Shown: one piece after another, positions 1 through 8,591 of the stretch
How the letters are laid out: every line of letters begins with the position of its first letter
How positions within the stretch are numbered: position 1 is the first letter of the stretch
Source: Flavobacteriaceae bacterium
Lineage (GTDB): Bacteria > Bacteroidota > Bacteroidia > Flavobacteriales > Flavobacteriaceae
DNA length: 64,000 bases
Reading direction: 5' to 3'
NCBI GenBank assembly: GCA_013373385.1
Contig: JABXHX010000017.1
Location: forward strand, 1-64,000
The notes under the pieces: generated by a model
Seen by the model: only the letters and a program-made list of their open reading frames with translations
The model's database searches: none
What the model was told of the DNA's origin: nothing
Translations under genes and position numbers: made by a program

Positions 1-118
1 AAGTAATTGCTTGTTCTCGCCTACTTCTGAAAATCCTCACGGATTTTCAGTTTGGTGTGTACTTGCTAAATTAAGTGCAAACCCACGCAACTACTCATAG
101 CCGAGACCGTTGTAACCA
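1..118 (+). repeat. attC-like site A (5' end cut by window edge)
   Basis: Core TTGCTTGTTCTCGCCTACTT, perfect 10-bp hairpin CTGAAAATCC-TCAC-GGATTTTCAG (27-50), GCTAAATTAAGT, CGCAAC, then GTTGTAACCA (109-118). Confidence 0.65.
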
Positions 119-203
119 ATTGACGCAAAGATGACGTTAACTTGACGTAACAAGTAATTATGTTTCCGATATACATTTGCTGAAACAATAAATAACATTC
201 AAA

Positions 204-869
204 ATGGAAACAAAAGATTTAGCAAAAAACTTAAAGAAATTAAGAGCAACTCGTGGAATGTCTCAAGAATATTTAGCAGACGAATCAAGAGTTAGCTTAA
301 GAACTATTCAAAGAATTGAAAATAATGAATCGGAACCAACAGGCGAAACGATTAAAAGAATAGCAATTGCGTTAGATGTAGAATTGACCGAGTTGATTGG
401 TTCAAATTCTGTGACAGAAACGAGCGATTTAAAAGCAACTATTATTTTTCTAAAAAAACAGCTTTCTAAAACAAATGAAAAATCGGAAATAAAAACATTT
501 GAAAGATTTATAGGAATTTTACAAAAACTAAAAGAAAAAGATTTAAGTATTGAACAGAGAGAAGGAATTGAAAGTTACATACAATATTTAGAACTTGAAA
601 AAATACCATCTTTTAGTAATGAAATGTTCAAAGTTAAACTGACAAAATTTAGAAAGTACTTAAAAAATAAATTACGTTTTGTACCAAAAAATTATTACAC
701 GACTTGGGCAGCAAGTTTTGGACTTTCATTTGCAGTTGGTTTTTCTGTTCAAAGTAATATAGATAATAACATTAAAATTGGAGTGATTTCAGTTGCTTCA
801 GTAATAATCGGAATTGGAATCATTATGGATATGAGAATGAAAAGACAGAAACGAACATTTAGTTTCTGA
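204..869 (+). CDS. XRE-family helix-turn-helix transcriptional regulator with C-terminal membrane segments
   Basis: N-terminal HTH_3 (LKKLRATRGMSQEYLADESRVSLRTIQRIENNESEPTGETIKRIA); two hydrophobic C-terminal segments. Confidence 0.85.
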   Translation: METKDLAKNLKKLRATRGMSQEYLADESRVSLRTIQRIENNESEPTGETIKRIAIALDVELTELIGSNSVTETSDLKATIIFLKKQLSKTNEKSEIKTFERFIGILQKLKEKDLSIEQREGIESYIQYLELEKIPSFSNEMFKVKLTKFRKYLKNKLRFVPKNYYTTWAASFGLSFAVGFSVQSNIDNNIKIGVISVASVIIGIGIIMDMRMKRQKRTFSF

Positions 870-876
870 AAACAAC

Positions 877-956
877 TGGTTACAACACCGTGTATAAAAA
901 ATTGCTAAATTAGCTACTTAAACACACCACTAATCATATACAATCACGTTAGCCAC
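877..956 (+). repeat. attC-like site B (short variant without the central hairpin)
   Basis: TGGTTACAACaccGTGTATA ... TATACaatcacGTTAGCCAC. Confidence 0.6.
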
Positions 957-967
957 AAACAAAAAAA

Positions 968-2335
968 ATGAGAAAACTTATAATCATATTACTTACCACT
1001 CTTCTATTTTCTTGTTCAAAACAAGGTCAATTTGATAAAAAGAAAGAAACAGAAGAAATTTTGAAGTTACACAACTTGCAACGAGATTATCATTTTAATA
1101 AAGATTCAATCTCTTTTGTAAATCAACTTTCTGAAAATTTTATCTCTGTCAATAAAGGTGTTATAACGCGGCCTGAAAGAAGTGAAATTTTGAATAGATA
1201 CAACAGTTACTTTTCTTCGGTTGAGTTTCTGAAGTGGGATGATGTCACCAAGCCTATAATCAAATTTTCTGAAGATGGTACGTTAGCATATTCAATTGTA
1301 GATAAAATAGTGAAGGTAATTTATAAAAATGAAATTGGAGAAAACGTATATGGAGAAACCCATTTCGCCTGGACTGCCATTTACAAAAAGTATGATGATA
1401 AGTGGAGAATTGAATGTGTCACTTCAACAGAGAAACCTAATAGTATAGGCGAAAAAGATTTTATCATTACTGAAAAAGACATAATACCTGAAGGTACAGC
1501 CTATAATTCCAAAACAAGCACTATATATATCGGTAGTATATACAAACAGAAAGTTATTGCAATATCGCCAAATGGAAATATAAACGACATCATCACCCAA
1601 GAAGTTTTTGAAAACTTGAGCCCTATTGGAATGGAAGTCGACAATAAGAACAATATACTTTGGACAAATGTTGCATTGGCACCGATAGTTAATAAAACAG
1701 GAAAGAACAAATGGAAAACAACAATTATGTCTTTCGACTTAACAACCAATAAACTAATTAAGAAGTATGATTTTATTGAGGGCAATCAAGTCTTTCTAAA
1801 TGATTTAACTATTGACAAAAATGGTGATGTATATGCAACTGAAAGTGTTAATAGTAATATATATAAACTAAATACACGTACAGATAAACTTGCAATATAT
1901 CTTGATTTGAAGAAATTTGGCTTTCCTAACGGCATTGTCTATAACCAACCACAACATTGTTTGTTTATTGCAACTAATGAAGGGATAGTGAAAATTGATA
2001 TTGAAACAAAAAAAGCGAAATTACTGGAGGTTGAAGAAAATATTAACGTCAAAGTTATTGATGGATTAGCAATTAACAATGATTATTTTATAGGTCATCA
2101 AAGTTCTAAAATATCAAAATTTTACTTTGATGAAAATATGGAAAGAATAATACGCTCAGAAATTTTTGATTCTGGAGATGAATTTGATTCAAGTACAACT
2201 GGAGAAGTAGGAAATGGTTTTTATCACTACATTGTCAACTCTCAAATAAGAAGTGGAATAAATAGAAAAAAAAACCAACTAAAACCGTTAGATAGTTTAG
2301 AAAATGTGATAATTAGAACAAGAATATTGAAATAG
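968..2335 (+). CDS. Lipoprotein with SnoaL/NTF2-like N-terminal region and SMP-30/gluconolactonase-like beta-propeller region
   Basis: Lipobox LLFSCSK; repeated propeller-like motifs (LNDLTIDKNGDVYATESVNSNIYKLN, FPNGIVYNQPQHCLFIA). Confidence 0.6.
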   Translation: MRKLIIILLTTLLFSCSKQGQFDKKKETEEILKLHNLQRDYHFNKDSISFVNQLSENFISVNKGVITRPERSEILNRYNSYFSSVEFLKWDDVTKPIIKFSEDGTLAYSIVDKIVKVIYKNEIGENVYGETHFAWTAIYKKYDDKWRIECVTSTEKPNSIGEKDFIITEKDIIPEGTAYNSKTSTIYIGSIYKQKVIAISPNGNINDIITQEVFENLSPIGMEVDNKNNILWTNVALAPIVNKTGKNKWKTTIMSFDLTTNKLIKKYDFIEGNQVFLNDLTIDKNGDVYATESVNSNIYKLNTRTDKLAIYLDLKKFGFPNGIVYNQPQHCLFIATNEGIVKIDIETKKAKLLEVEENINVKVIDGLAINNDYFIGHQSSKISKFYFDENMERIIRSEIFDSGDEFDSSTTGEVGNGFYHYIVNSQIRSGINRKKNQLKPLDSLENVIIRTRILK

Positions 2336-2338
2336 CCA

Positions 2339-2472
2339 GTGGCTAACAACTTGTATAATTCATTGCTAGTAATAGCCTACTTACGAAAGTCCTCGCAGAC
2401 TTTCTATCTGTGATTTACTTGCTGACTTGTCCCTAAACCACGCAACGAAATCATACACAAACACGTTATGTG
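2339..2472 (+). repeat. attC-like site C
   Basis: GTGGCTAACaactTGTATAATTCATTGCTAG ... GAAAGTC-ctcgca-GACTTTC ... CGCAACGAAATCATACACAAACACGTTATGTG. Confidence 0.65.
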
Positions 2473-3393
2473 CAAGTTGAATTAGAAACAAAAAGGAAAC
2501 AACTCAATCAAAGTTTTGAGAAAACAAGTAAGAGGATTAACATGTTGCAATTTGAATATATAGTACTTGCTCTCATGTACACAACTCTGTCGATATCACT
2601 ATTTCTACAGTGGTTATGTTTTAAGAAAAATATGGAAAATTGGGAAACGATTTCACTAACTATTTCTCTCTTATTATTGGTAATTTCGATGGGACTTTCC
2701 TCTTTCTTCTCAGAAAAAGAAACCACTACAATCACTACTTTACTATGTATGATTCTGGTAGGAGTGACTACCTTTATGGAATCCTTAAGTCAACAAAAAC
2801 ATTCTATTCCACCAACATATAAAATAGTTCAAATTGGTACTTCAATAGCCTTGACTATATGCGTTATCCTTGTCTATTTTTTTGAAAAAATGGCTTTTGT
2901 CCAATATGTTGTAGTTGGTTTCTTGGTTATTTCTGTTATAACCTCAATGCTAATTACCCGACAAACAAAACCAGTAAAACAATATAAACATCTTGAAAAG
3001 TCGAACAGAGTTTTCGCCTTCACATTTTTAACTTTAGTCCCAATTTATCTTGCTTTCCATTATGCTTTTGAAGAAGCTTATCAACAATTTCAAATGGGAT
3101 TTTTGCTTTACTTTGCTTTTATTGCACTTGCAATACGAAAAATATTTGACGATTTACATCGATTATCGCTCGTTAACAATACCTTAAAACCAATCGAACA
3201 GCATTTTAAAAACTATGGATTGACAAAAAGGGAACAAGAAATTGCTATTCTTCTCTTTGAAGGTTTAACCTATCAAAGCATAGCTGACCAGCTATTTATT
3301 TCACTCCCTACCATTAAGACTCATGCTAGCAATATCTATAAAAAATGCAAAGTAAAATCTCGTAATGAATTAACAAAGATTCTTGCCTCATAG
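2470..3393 (+). CDS. Membrane-bound LuxR-type transcriptional regulator (about 7 TM segments + C-terminal LuxR HTH)
   Basis: C-terminal LTKREQEIAILLFEGLTYQSIADQLFISLPTIKTHASNIYKKCKVKSRNEL; seven hydrophobic segments upstream. The real start may be the internal ATG at 2541 (MLQFEYIVL), matching the start of the paralogue at 4542 (MLVIEYLIL). Confidence 0.8.
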   Translation: MQVELETKRKQLNQSFEKTSKRINMLQFEYIVLALMYTTLSISLFLQWLCFKKNMENWETISLTISLLLLVISMGLSSFFSEKETTTITTLLCMILVGVTTFMESLSQQKHSIPPTYKIVQIGTSIALTICVILVYFFEKMAFVQYVVVGFLVISVITSMLITRQTKPVKQYKHLEKSNRVFAFTFLTLVPIYLAFHYAFEEAYQQFQMGFLLYFAFIALAIRKIFDDLHRLSLVNNTLKPIEQHFKNYGLTKREQEIAILLFEGLTYQSIADQLFISLPTIKTHASNIYKKCKVKSRNELTKILAS

Positions 3394-3540
3394 CGAATTC
3401 TATTTACTAAACATTATAACCTACTAATTATCAGTACTCATACTTTTGTATGATATTTTTATTTTCACTAAAAATCATCCTATTATTCGATTGTCTACCT
3501 TTATCTGGATAGTAGTTTTGCTTCAAATTAAAAAACTATA

Positions 3541-4221
3541 ATGAAGTATAAACTATTATTCATCGCATTTTACGGAATTACCCTCCTTAATTTGAATGCT
3601 CAAGATTTAGCATTCAATAACAAAAATCTCATTACACAATTTGAAATCAAGGATTATTATTATTCAATTGCAAATGATCATTCTAAAAAGGATTCTATCA
3701 AAACTAGAAAAACCCAATTCTTTATCGGTTATGATTTTGGAGAGGCGGCTTTCAATAAATTTCAATCCCTCGGTGGAGAGATTGGAGTTAAATTTAAAAA
3801 CAATCATCAAGTAAGGCTATCCCACACGAGCATTCGTTTTACAGAAGCACACCTATCGTCAAGTTTTGCTGGTGCTGTAGATGGCAAAAATGTAAAAGGG
3901 AAACAATTTGGATTTGAATTATTTTATGATTTTCCAGTATTTTTTAATGGGTTTTATATTAGTCCTTCTTTGGGATATTACGATAATGAATACACACATA
4001 CAAATTTGAATGAAAAGCTCGAAAAGGCATCTTTCACCGTTGGTTCGGCAATCAGTTTTACTGAGGTAGATATATTTAAAGTAAAAGGGCTTTATTATAG
4101 AGTTTCTCTGCCATATCGATATACTTTTAATCCTCACAAGAAAACAAAATTGGGAGAAACCACCATCAAGAGCAATACTTTTGACAGTCATCTTTGGTTC
4201 TTTGTAGGATATCAATTTTAA
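3541..4221 (+). CDS. Putative outer-membrane beta-barrel protein
   Basis: Signal peptide (MKYKLLFIAFYGITLLNLNAQ); alternating aromatic/hydrophobic strands; terminal aromatic residue (..WFFVGYQF). Confidence 0.6.
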   Translation: MKYKLLFIAFYGITLLNLNAQDLAFNNKNLITQFEIKDYYYSIANDHSKKDSIKTRKTQFFIGYDFGEAAFNKFQSLGGEIGVKFKNNHQVRLSHTSIRFTEAHLSSSFAGAVDGKNVKGKQFGFELFYDFPVFFNGFYISPSLGYYDNEYTHTNLNEKLEKASFTVGSAISFTEVDIFKVKGLYYRVSLPYRYTFNPHKKTKLGETTIKSNTFDSHLWFFVGYQF

Positions 4222-4359
4222 GCATAATTTTGCAAAAGCAACCAACAGAGTACTGCTAGACGAGGTAAATTAAATTCCAAAATAATTCAGTTTTAGTCAA
4301 TTTAGAATTTAAACTTATGAAAGTGGCTTTTCATCAAGAAGGAATAAACAAAAACCTAC

Positions 4360-4496
4360 ACACAACACCGTGTATAATTCATTGTTGCTAGTACTAGCCT
4401 ACTTACAAAAATCCTCGCGGATTTTCTATTTCATTTGTATTTGCTAATTTAGTTGCTGAAATACGCAACGAAATCATACACAAAAACGTTGTATGA
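4360..4496 (+). repeat. attC-like site D
   Basis: CACACAACaccGTGTATaattcattGTTGCtag ... AAAATCC-TCGC-GGATTTT (4409-4426) ... acGCAACgaaatcATACACaaaaacGTTGTATG; three nested stem segments. Confidence 0.68.
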
Positions 4497-4541
4497 AAGC
4501 TGATAATCGCTTTAATGAAATGATAAATATTAGAAAATAAA

Positions 4542-5393
4542 ATGCTGGTAATAGAATATTTAATTCTTGGCCTTGTATACACATCACTAGTAGTTTCCTT
4601 GTTTCTACAATGGTTCTGTTATAAGAAGAAAATGGAAAATTGGGAAACGATAGTCTTTACAACATCACTTTTACTCTTGGTGATTTCAATTGGTCTATCT
4701 CCTATACTAGAAGAAGGAAACACAACCAGCACACTAACCTTAATTTGTATGGTTTTGGTTGCAATCACTACGGTTTTAGAGACATTAAGGCAACAAACAC
4801 ATAATATTCCCAGCCAATACAAGAAGATACATTTTGTAGTTGGGGTATTTTTAATCATATCTGTACTTATTGCTCGATTCTTTGATATGATGTTTTTCGT
4901 TCAATCAATAATCGTTGGGTTTCTTGTGATTTCTATTATTGTATCTATGTTGATTGTTCGAAAAACTAAATCCGTAAAACAATTTCAACACCTTGAAAAA
5001 TCAAACAGAATTTTCGGCATTGTATTTTTAATTATAGTTCCCATTTTTCTAATACATCACTATGGTTTTGAACAAGAAAGCTACTCGTTTCCAACAATTT
5101 TTCTACTCTATTTTGCCTTTATTGCCCTGGCAGCAAGAAAGATCCATGACGATCTGCAACGACTATCTATTACCAGCAAACAATTAGATCCAAATAAACA
5201 ACAATTCAAAAACTATGGATTAACGCAAAGGGAACAAGAAATAGCAACATTTCTATTTGATGGCTTAACCTATCAAGAGATAACTAACAAATTGCACATT
5301 TCACTTCCTACTGTAAAAACACACGCAAGTAACATTTACAAGAAATGTAGTGTGAAGAACCGTAATGAACTTAGCAGGTTACTAATGATCTAA
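4542..5393 (+). CDS. Membrane-bound LuxR-type transcriptional regulator, paralogue of 2470-3393
   Basis: C-terminal LTQREQEIATFLFDGLTYQEITNKLHISLPTVKTHASNIYKKCSVKNRNEL; same multi-TM N-terminus. Confidence 0.82.
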   Translation: MLVIEYLILGLVYTSLVVSLFLQWFCYKKKMENWETIVFTTSLLLLVISIGLSPILEEGNTTSTLTLICMVLVAITTVLETLRQQTHNIPSQYKKIHFVVGVFLIISVLIARFFDMMFFVQSIIVGFLVISIIVSMLIVRKTKSVKQFQHLEKSNRIFGIVFLIIVPIFLIHHYGFEQESYSFPTIFLLYFAFIALAARKIHDDLQRLSITSKQLDPNKQQFKNYGLTQREQEIATFLFDGLTYQEITNKLHISLPTVKTHASNIYKKCSVKNRNELSRLLMI

Positions 5394-5507
5394 TTATCAA
5401 TACTCATACTTATATATGATATTCATTTTATAGGCATAAATCAACCTATTACCTGATTGTCTATTCTTGGAAGTACAAATAATTTTGCTTCATAAAGAAA
5501 AGTATAA

Positions 5508-6791
5508 ATGAAGCATAAACTATTATCCATTGCCTTTGGTCTATTGATTAACTCTTTTGTTCTAGCCCAAAAAGACTCATCAAAAAAAGAAAGACTTGAT
5601 TTCGCAAAAATGTACTTTGAAATCGGAGGAACTTACCTTCCATCTTTTACAGGAAAGCAACTAGAAAATAATACAATAACTGCTTTTGATCATTCTGCAA
5701 CTCTTAATCCATATCTAACATGGGGTGGTTTTCACTTTTGGGGACATACCGAATTCTATGTCACTTTTCCTTTAAGTCAGTTAAGGTTAAATGAAGACAA
5801 TGGAACAAGTCACGAACTAAATCACTCGGTAGCCACAGGTGTAAGAATATATCCTTGGGCAATGGAAGAAAGAAAAATACGACCTTATATTGGAGCCAAT
5901 TGGGGAGCGCTAGACTTTAGGCAGATATTAGAGCCTGATAAAAATAAAAGTAAACTCTCCAAGGACTTTATGCTCAACTACGATGCAGGTGTTATGTATA
6001 ATTATAAAAAATTAGCCCTAAGGCTGGGTATTAATTTTTTTACAGATAATAAATGGTATTATCCTGTGAGCAAAACCCAGCTGTCAGAAATTAGAACTCC
6101 TAGAATGTCTTTTCAAATGGGACTGCTCTATTCCTTTGACTCAACAAAAGACACCAAAGAAGAAAATATTGATAAATGGAATAGTTATCCTACTGTTTCA
6201 AAATTATCTTATGATGCCAATAAATTTGGAGACCTATTTATAGGTATAGGGCCGTCGACTTCATTTTCACTTTCAGATTCTGACTATAACGCCATTCAGT
6301 TTCCTTATTTACAACAAAAACTAACTTCTACAAACTATTTTGATATAGCATTGGGTTATCATTTTAATCGAGCTAATCTGTTCACAGCTATATCTTATAG
6401 AAATCCAACTTTTGAAACCGAAGGTTTTGGGTCAAAACAAACCATTAAAAAGACTTCTTTAGCTGTAGAAGTTAATAAATTTCTGACTGACTATTCTGGC
6501 TTTGCACCGTATATTGGATTAAATATAGCCTATGATAGGTTTAACTATGAACAAAATGTTGATGGAGTTAAAACACAGCAAACTTTTACAAATGAAATTG
6601 AACCAGGTTTTACCTTCGGTTGGGATATTGTACCTGGTAAAACTAACGAAGCTTTGATATTAAGAACCAATTTGAGGTGGTATCCGTTTTCTAAATTTGA
6701 AATAGATGGCACAAAATTTAATTTTAGTCAATTGGAATACAACTTGATTCAAGTCGTTTTTTATCCTGAAAGACTTAAAAAAAGGAAATAA
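5508..6791 (+). CDS. Putative outer-membrane beta-barrel protein
   Basis: Signal peptide (MKHKLLSIAFGLLINSFVLAQ); barrel-like strands; same position relative to its LuxR gene as 3541-4221. Confidence 0.6.
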   Translation: MKHKLLSIAFGLLINSFVLAQKDSSKKERLDFAKMYFEIGGTYLPSFTGKQLENNTITAFDHSATLNPYLTWGGFHFWGHTEFYVTFPLSQLRLNEDNGTSHELNHSVATGVRIYPWAMEERKIRPYIGANWGALDFRQILEPDKNKSKLSKDFMLNYDAGVMYNYKKLALRLGINFFTDNKWYYPVSKTQLSEIRTPRMSFQMGLLYSFDSTKDTKEENIDKWNSYPTVSKLSYDANKFGDLFIGIGPSTSFSLSDSDYNAIQFPYLQQKLTSTNYFDIALGYHFNRANLFTAISYRNPTFETEGFGSKQTIKKTSLAVEVNKFLTDYSGFAPYIGLNIAYDRFNYEQNVDGVKTQQTFTNEIEPGFTFGWDIVPGKTNEALILRTNLRWYPFSKFEIDGTKFNFSQLEYNLIQVVFYPERLKKRK

Positions 6792-6796
6792 AAGCC

Positions 6797-7221
6797 AGCA
6801 CACAATTATTGGTTTTGTACCTAGACCAAGACCACTTTATAAATGGCATTTTGGAGCTTACGGATTAGGGTGGGTGATTTCTCATATTCACGATTATTCT
6901 ATTATCTCTCATACAGGTAGCCTATCAGGAATGTTGTCTTCAGTAATAATTGTACCAGAAATAAATTCTGCTGTAATAGTTCTTACAAACAGTTCTCAAG
7001 GAGGAAATAGCTACAACACTATAAGTTCTGCAATTCGTGATGAATGGATTGGTCGAAAAAGGTAGGATTATTTAACCAACACTAAAGAACAACTTGAATT
7101 TGCAGAATCTTGGAATAATTCAAAAACTCAAGAAGTATGGAAGACAGTAACAATTTCAAATACCAGAAAAATAAACGTTATACAACATTTAGAAACTACT
7201 AGATTTTCTTTTATAAAGTAA
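6797..7221 (+). pseudogene. C-terminal remnant of a beta-lactamase-family serine hydrolase
   Basis: Frame reads FVPRPRPLYKWHFGAYGLGWVISHIHDYSIISHTGSLSGMLSSVIIVPEINSAVIVLTNS...RDEWIGRKR*DYLTNTKEQLEFAESW...; N-terminal catalytic half missing; in-frame TAG at 7063-7065. Confidence 0.7.
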
Positions 7222-7269
7222 CATTTTAACCCATTATTCGTCTATATCAAACAGCCAAAAAATTATTAA

Positions 7270-8391
7270 ATGAAATTTAAAATATCCCTGTTAGTTTGCC
7301 TCGTTGTATTTTCAAATTGTAAAAATTTAGAAAAAAAACCTAAAGTTGAAACTATAGACCCAATTCAAATTTCGATGGACAAAAACGCAGATTCACTTCT
7401 CTTGGATTCGAAAATAAATGCTGTTTCAATCGGAATTTATAAAAATGGCAAAAAGTATATTTCTCACTATGGCGAATTAGATAAAGGAAAAAGCAACAAA
7501 CCAAACGATAATACTATTTATGAAATAGCATCTGTAAGTAAAACTTTTACTGGAATTCTTGTTGCAAATGCTGTGCTCGAAGGAAAATTAAACCTTGACG
7601 ATGATATTCGAAAGTACTTAAAAGAAGATTTCAAAAATTTTGAATACAATAAACAACCTATAAAAATAAAGCATTTACTCACGCACACAAGTGAAATGAG
7701 AAAATTTTTACCTGAAAGTATTAATGAATTATTTTCCGATTTTAATGAAGATTTACCGTTTAAGGTTTATGAAATTCAAAAGAATTATACCAAAAAGGAT
7801 TTCTTTTCTGACTTACAGAAAATTAAGTTAGATACTATTCCTGGCTCACGATATGGTTATTCAAATGTAGATACAGAGATTATGGCTCAAATATTAGAAT
7901 ATATATATGACAGATCATTTAATGATATTTTAAAAGACTATTTCCAGATAAATGCAAATATGCAAAATACTCAGATTGACCTTCCAAAAAACAAACAACA
8001 ATATCTAGCAAATGGTTACGGAATGACAGGAAAGCTTGTTCCTCATGAAATTGTATTGTATGGAGCAGATGGCGGTGTAAAAACTACAATGCCAGATTTA
8101 GTAAATTATATGGCGTTTCAGTTAGATAAAACCAAACCTACTATTATAGAATCTCACAGAATTCTCTATGAAAATGGAAATCGAAAAATGGCTTATTATT
8201 TGCCAATAAAAAGCAACGAAGAATATGGTGTTTATTATAATATGCACGGAGGAGGTTTTGGAACTCAAAATTGGTTTTTTATTATCCCAAAATATGATTT
8301 AGGAATCTCTGTAATCACAAATCAAAGTGATTTAGATACTGCAAATAAATTAGTAAAAACTGTTAAAGGGCTGATTATTGATTTGAAATAA
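7270..8391 (+). CDS. Serine hydrolase, beta-lactamase/penicillin-binding-protein-like, lipoprotein
   Basis: SVSK (SxxK) motif, YSN motif (GYSNVDTE), lipobox-like FSNCKN. Confidence 0.82.
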   Translation: MKFKISLLVCLVVFSNCKNLEKKPKVETIDPIQISMDKNADSLLLDSKINAVSIGIYKNGKKYISHYGELDKGKSNKPNDNTIYEIASVSKTFTGILVANAVLEGKLNLDDDIRKYLKEDFKNFEYNKQPIKIKHLLTHTSEMRKFLPESINELFSDFNEDLPFKVYEIQKNYTKKDFFSDLQKIKLDTIPGSRYGYSNVDTEIMAQILEYIYDRSFNDILKDYFQINANMQNTQIDLPKNKQQYLANGYGMTGKLVPHEIVLYGADGGVKTTMPDLVNYMAFQLDKTKPTIIESHRILYENGNRKMAYYLPIKSNEEYGVYYNMHGGGFGTQNWFFIIPKYDLGISVITNQSDLDTANKLVKTVKGLIIDLK

Positions 8392-8396
8392 AAACG

Positions 8397-8531
8397 TTTT
8401 ACAACACCGCATAAAATTAATTGCTAGTACAGCGTTTACTTACGAAAATCCTCGCGGTTTTTCTATTCGGTTTGTATGTGCTAAATTAAGTACTCAAACA
8501 ACGCAACTAACCAAACACAAGACCTTTGTGA
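8397..8531 (+). repeat. attC-like site E (degenerate 3' end)
   Basis: TTTTACAACaccGCATAAaattaattgctagtacagcg...GAAAATCC-TCGC-GGTTTTTC...gctaaattaagt...cgcaac; the 3' arm has drifted to CCTTTGTGACA. Confidence 0.55.
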
Positions 8532-8591
8532 CACATTCAACTAACGTTCAACTTTTGTTGCTCCGTGCTTCGCACTCCCACCCCAAAAGAT

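Follow-up and report, generated by a model that had tools for sequence, protein, structure and literature searches.

A stretch of 64,000 nucleotides from a Flavobacteriaceae bacterium (assembly GCA_013373385.1, contig JABXHX010000017.1, positions 1 to 64,000; from here: the window) carries near its beginning two units, W1 and W2. Each is composed of a gene for a membrane protein with a LuxR-type helix-turn-helix (HTH), a palindromic putative operator, a promoter and a gene for an outer-membrane-type protein (OMP). Such seven-transmembrane (7TM) regulators were searched for in 400 genomes of the same family, in genome contigs, in plasmids, in 396 genomes of the phylum and in two further orders, which yielded 13 full-length members across the Bacteroidota, the two of the window included. 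G numbers denote genomes and L numbers loci. The units of the window comprise the following features:

2542–3393, + strand: 7TM-LuxR regulator 1, 283 aa (PF00196, 55.6 bits; alignment, hydropathy)
3438–3453, strand-neutral: distal operator of W1, TCATACTTTTGTATGA, a perfect 6-4-6 palindrome, predicted by comparison
3475–3490, + strand: putative proximal degenerate operator of W1, TCATCCTATTATTCGA, offset from the distal site by a constant 37 bp
3491–3520, + strand: Bacteroidota-type promoter of W1 (TTG 3491–3493, 19 bp, TAGTTTTG 3513–3520)
3541–4221, + strand: short OMP, 226 aa, with homologues in G239 (L017) and Flammeovirga (L022)
4542–5393, + strand: 7TM-LuxR regulator 2, 283 aa (PF00196, 50.0 bits)
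5404–5419, strand-neutral: putative distal operator of W2, TCATACTTATATATGA, with one half-site mismatch
5441–5456, + strand: putative proximal degenerate operator of W2, TCAACCTATTACCTGA
5457–5487, + strand: promoter of W2 (TTG 5457–5459, 20 bp, TAATTTTG 5480–5487)
5508–6791, + strand: long OMP, 427 aa, its C-terminal half similar to eight-stranded barrels of the OmpA/OmpX/NspA type

The regulators and the proteins encoded behind them

Both window regulators, which are 60% identical to each other, end in a GerE/LuxR HTH (55.5 and 50.0 bits against PF00196, gathering cut-off 23.5 bits), and this domain was matched in all 12 family members scanned. In the alignment of 13 sequences the family mean of hydropathy has seven peaks, near residues 15, 45, 72, 106, 128, 166 and 191 of the 283-aa form, placing transmembrane segments and the DNA-binding domain in one chain; the membrane half changes faster and is less conserved than the HTH. 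The original prediction had recognized about seven hydrophobic segments and a LuxR-type HTH in both reading frames, which hydropathy and PF00196 bear out. It had also placed the start of regulator 1 at 2470; the true start is the ATG at 2542, since the homologues begin at the equivalent of M25 and the GTG at 2470 falls within a recombination site.

The two downstream products (226 and 427 aa) are secreted and beta-rich as judged by sequence, in line with the predicted outer-membrane-type protein behind each regulator. The OmpW score stayed below the Pfam cut-off in the scan of the window proteins, and the Pfam and NCBIfam scan provided no family name for either OMP. Of the two, the 427-aa protein was modelled, and its C-terminal half matched NspA, OmpA and OmpX in Foldseek (TMt 0.68–0.78, at a mean model pLDDT of only 53). 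In G239 and in Flammeovirga, a single operon contains the short and the long OMP gene next to each other. Since both families co-occur there in the order regulator-short-long, the 226-aa and 427-aa proteins are not two diverged copies of one barrel, a reading that was rejected, but separate families and two components of a wider unit. It had been suggested that the barrels diverged far more than the regulators, and that a conserved sensor controls a variable surface protein. Neither suggestion was borne out: the proteins belong to separate families, the long OMP shows 48–74% identity across the genomes for which the regulator shows 36–73%, and within the regulator it is the 7TM half that changes faster.

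Regulator genes were present in five of the 400 family genomes; the contig scan gave matches in a Saprospiraceae metagenome-assembled genome and in Salegentibacter, and the plasmid search one in Flammeovirga kamogawensis. The genome-neighbourhood check for 7TM-LuxR and OMP pairs found the expected co-occurrence, with both genes adjacent in 10 of the 13 loci and in the same genome in 11 of 13. Together with an operator-promoter region shared by all 13 systems, this strongly supports the predicted pairing of a membrane-tethered one-component regulator with an OMP. The long OMP adjoins the regulator in W2, L009, L010, G018, G608, G641 and G795, and the short OMP alone does so in W1. In G279 (L020:5111–5450) the operator-promoter region precedes a gene for a small protein with hydrophobic segments, followed by one for a secreted protein, while in G741 a beta-lactamase-fold protein related to a PF00144 protein of the window is encoded directly behind the operator. 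What varies is the gene behind the operator, which can encode either OMP or both of them, a beta-lactamase-fold protein, or a small membrane protein with a secreted protein after it.

Predicted operator, promoter and their association with the regulator

Comparison of the gaps between regulator and OMP genes identified the palindrome TCATAC-N4-GTATGA, which stands before the target gene in all 13 systems, 11 times exactly and twice with one mismatch. The end of the palindrome and the sequence GATTG (GATGG in G608) are 35 bp apart in 12 systems; in the remaining one the distance is 34 bp. A degenerate second copy follows at an offset of 37 bp and reaches right up to the TTG of a −33 element of the Bacteroidota type, as in W1, where it stops immediately 5′ of this TTG, and the −7 box TAnTTTTG follows 19–21 bp after the TTG in eight systems. 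The half-sites hold 1.93 bits of information per column, a value conditioned on anchoring the alignment on the palindrome, and the GATTG region holds 1.49 bits, a value that is not so conditioned; other DNA holds 0.54–0.56 bits in the upstream and intervening parts and 0.26 bits downstream. On this comparative basis the palindrome is the predicted operator of the regulator.

Of the 400 family genomes, four contain the exact 16-mer, and each of them is one of the five regulator carriers (hypergeometric probability ~5e-9); the fifth carrier has a variant spacer in the palindrome. In G239, G018, G128, G279, G401, G608, G641 and G741, TCATACN4GTATGA is present once per whole genome and always at the target gene; the window's genome contains one further instance on contig C10, outside any regulator unit and with an unrelated spacer. 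After the motif had been read from the first loci, the prediction held in five systems, of which G608, G641, G741 and G795 had been found by regulator protein sequence alone and G128 by the motif. The strongest case of association is G128, in which the long OMP gene is on another contig than the regulator gene and the sole site lies 5′ of the OMP gene, not behind the regulator gene; the site goes with the OMP and not with the regulator gene. Divergent long-OMP relatives without the regulator (G035, G329 and G178) had no site with up to three mismatches in the 400 bp upstream. The composite operator-promoter pattern, searched in 115 genomes of the phylum, matched in two regulator carriers and once in apparently coding sequence; this third match, reading as coding, was taken as chance.

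Proposed mechanism, alternatives and related systems

We consider it likely that the units specify a mobile, membrane-integrated one-component regulator that is dedicated to one promoter and would activate the OMP gene. What the sequences show is the architecture of the genes, the conservation and spacing of the operator-promoter region throughout the family, its near-uniqueness per genome and a tie to the regulator that persists where the two are unlinked; DNA binding, the sign of regulation, the signal and the role of the OMP are inferred from these. The seven-helix inner-membrane domain would sense an envelope or membrane signal, while the cytoplasmic LuxR-type HTH would bind one dedicated operator per genome, consisting of the perfect distal palindrome and the degenerate copy downstream that abuts the −33 element. 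Once bound, the regulator would activate the adjacent promoter TTG-N19–21-TAnTTTTG. If transcription starts at the usual place for such promoters, the centre of the proximal copy would fall near −42, which is where LuxR-type activators contact RNA polymerase.

Several observations weigh against this reading. A structure model of the regulator from four input sequences has seven long helices at a mean pLDDT of 52.7, so that fold and topology rest on hydropathy. No clear −7 match was obtained with the regular expression in G018, G641, G795, G279 and G608. Half-site mismatches are present in L009 and W2, and the weaker symmetry in W2 may mean that the two window regulators differ in affinity or cross-talk. 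The G128 regulator shares only 42% identity with window regulator 2, and its tie to the operator is presumed.

The same regulator could act on the same operator as a repressor, blocking RNA polymerase by binding a proximal site that overlaps the −33 element until a membrane signal releases it, and the proximal site directly abutting the −33 TTG is compatible with this. We regard it as unlikely, however, because the better-conserved palindrome lies ~43 bp upstream of −33, a position typical of activators but not of simple repressors, and because proteins with a LuxR/NarL-type HTH are mostly activators. Being an inverted repeat that in 12 of 13 systems lies just 3′ of the regulator gene, the palindrome might instead be bound by another protein, or serve the regulator transcript as an RNA or terminator element, and be unrelated to the regulator itself. 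This is very improbable: the occurrence of the palindrome tracks the presence of the regulator, and in G128 the sole copy stands before the unlinked OMP gene. A terminator was rejected on this arrangement and on the stem, as two 6-bp arms rich in A+T around a 4-base loop, lacking a G+C-rich stem, are ill suited to this role.

The sparse distribution and mobile surroundings of the units, as well as the correlation of regulator and OMP identities across genomes (r = 0.75), would also be expected if neighbouring genes were passively co-inherited on mobile DNA and each regulated independently. Yet the operator is kept at fixed spacing while the flanking non-coding DNA is randomised, G279 and G741 keep the operator but have exchanged the target behind it, and G128 has its site at an unlinked gene, which leaves passive pairing the least probable of these alternatives.

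A membrane-integrated activator of the kind proposed here shares features with several known systems. The 7TMR-DISM receptors (PF07695) likewise contain a seven-helix membrane module and in the Bacteroidota are sometimes linked to a LuxR HTH. An assignment to them was dropped, since only one of 12 regulators scored at all against PF07695 (20.9 bits vs. a cut-off of 29), and no extracellular 7TMR-DISMED domain was found with the regulators. The GerE HTH and a proximal site near the lux box position are shared with LuxR/NarL factors, whereas the present regulators have no receiver and no autoinducer domain, their input domain being integral to the membrane. As in CadC and ToxR, the membrane protein itself is predicted to bind DNA, at very few dedicated target sites. 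CadC and ToxR have a winged-helix DNA domain of the OmpR type, one transmembrane helix and a periplasmic domain; by contrast, the regulators gave no match to Trans_reg_C and combine a LuxR/GerE HTH with seven transmembrane helices and no sizeable periplasmic domain. A single helix is also what PMC6320335 gives for the CadC/ToxR type. CadC, the functional parallel, locates its site through diffusion and capture while anchored in the membrane, and relocation of the site on the chromosome hardly matters (PMC7888679), which fits the unlinked arrangement in G128. In the open-access literature we found no 7TM-LuxR regulator of such type and no mention of the 16-mer.

Cassettes, mobility and descent of the units

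The borders of the units are sites of ~140 bp that match a common site model, and cassette 3 contains additional genes:

2340–2477, + strand: attC-like recombination site, left border of cassette 2 (covariance-model match of 155 bits, the site itself being a model member; array end complementarity); cassette 2 begins with TT at 2466
4359–4500, + strand: attC-like site separating cassettes 2 and 3, cut after G4488
6850–7065, + strand: beta-lactamase-family C-terminal remnant in cassette 3 (PF00144, 28.9 bits, cut-off 27)
7270–8391, + strand: beta-lactamase-family (PF00144) lipoprotein-like gene in cassette 3
8398–8537, + strand: attC-like site, right border of cassette 3

Carriage in cassette-like units had been predicted and is supported by the model matches at both borders and by cassette-specific complementarity of the ends. 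The module end predicted at 6791 is correct for the OMP gene but not for the cassette, which runs to ~8524 and is a composite of ~4 kb made up of the regulator unit, the beta-lactamase-family remnant and a full gene. No operator copy was found 5′ of the gene at 7270–8391, the region having only two near-operators.

In 58 neighbouring site pairs from arrays of the same genus, the cassette start and the outer end of the next site are complementary at a mean of 4.29 of 5 bases, compared to 1.84 after shuffling (maximum 2.60 in 5000 shuffles). Such ends, complementary cassette by cassette, are a mark of integron cassettes. The site model matches 11 of the 12 genus genomes searched, the window's own included, and none of eight other relatives. 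A tyrosine recombinase of 385–387 aa stands at the head of the arrays in G938 and G946, and in other members of the genus it is found next to sites; in the window's genome it is encoded at the end of contig C93 (G000:C93, L095 158–1315). No IntI integrase scored above the TIGR02249 cut-off of 265 in 20 genomes, the genus recombinase reaching 206–210 bits and leaving the model stretch ~177–238 unmatched. The complementary ends and the recombinase at the head of the arrays resemble integron cassettes, whereas its score below the cut-off and a cassette content of regulator, internal promoter and target do not. Integron-like arrays were observed genus-wide (window 1–8537, G000:C93, L096, L098, L099 and L110–L115). 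The window contig begins inside an attC-like site, so the assembly probably broke at repeats.

The regulator-OMP unit moves horizontally. The Salegentibacter copy lies among conjugation-type genes, as judged by eye from translations; that of Flammeovirga is carried by a 640-kb plasmid, with a transposase gene as its neighbour. Trees join window regulator 2 with the Saprospiraceae gene as its sister (support 100) and leave regulator 1 outside this pair, which makes separate arrival of the two window units more likely than duplication in place. Simple duplication in place was rejected on these trees, although the position of regulator 1 itself is weakly supported, and the description of the module as duplicated is doubtful. 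Differences fall mostly at third codon positions, in the regulator gene and the OMP gene alike.

On balance, we lean towards an undescribed class of seven-helix LuxR-type regulators with one operator per genome, forming a portable sensor-operator-promoter module with exchangeable output that in the window's genus resides in integron cassettes mobilised by a non-canonical integrase. If this is true, a complete predicted circuit of regulator, 16-bp operator, second site, promoter and target can be read from the sequence, with a single site per genome, in organisms with little-mapped signalling. It would be a second case besides CadC, with another architecture, of a DNA-binding protein reaching its site from the membrane, and integron-type cassettes would carry a whole regulated unit and not one promoterless gene alone. 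Apparently, a portable surface-control unit of one regulator and one target recurs across distant Bacteroidota.

Further cassette-related features were observed. At 204–869 the window encodes a cassette-borne regulator with a Cro/C1-type HTH (PF01381, 59.5 bits) and two hydrophobic segments near its C-terminus. The attC-like site at 879–957 is shortened to ~79 bp vs. 140 and is without the central hairpin region; even so, its cassette end remains perfectly complementary (TTAGCCAC at 949, GTGGCTAA at ~2339–2346). A weak match to the attC model (L017:4997–5115, − strand, 23 bits, E 0.07) is located exactly where the long OMP of G239 ends and is possibly a cassette remnant outside the genus.

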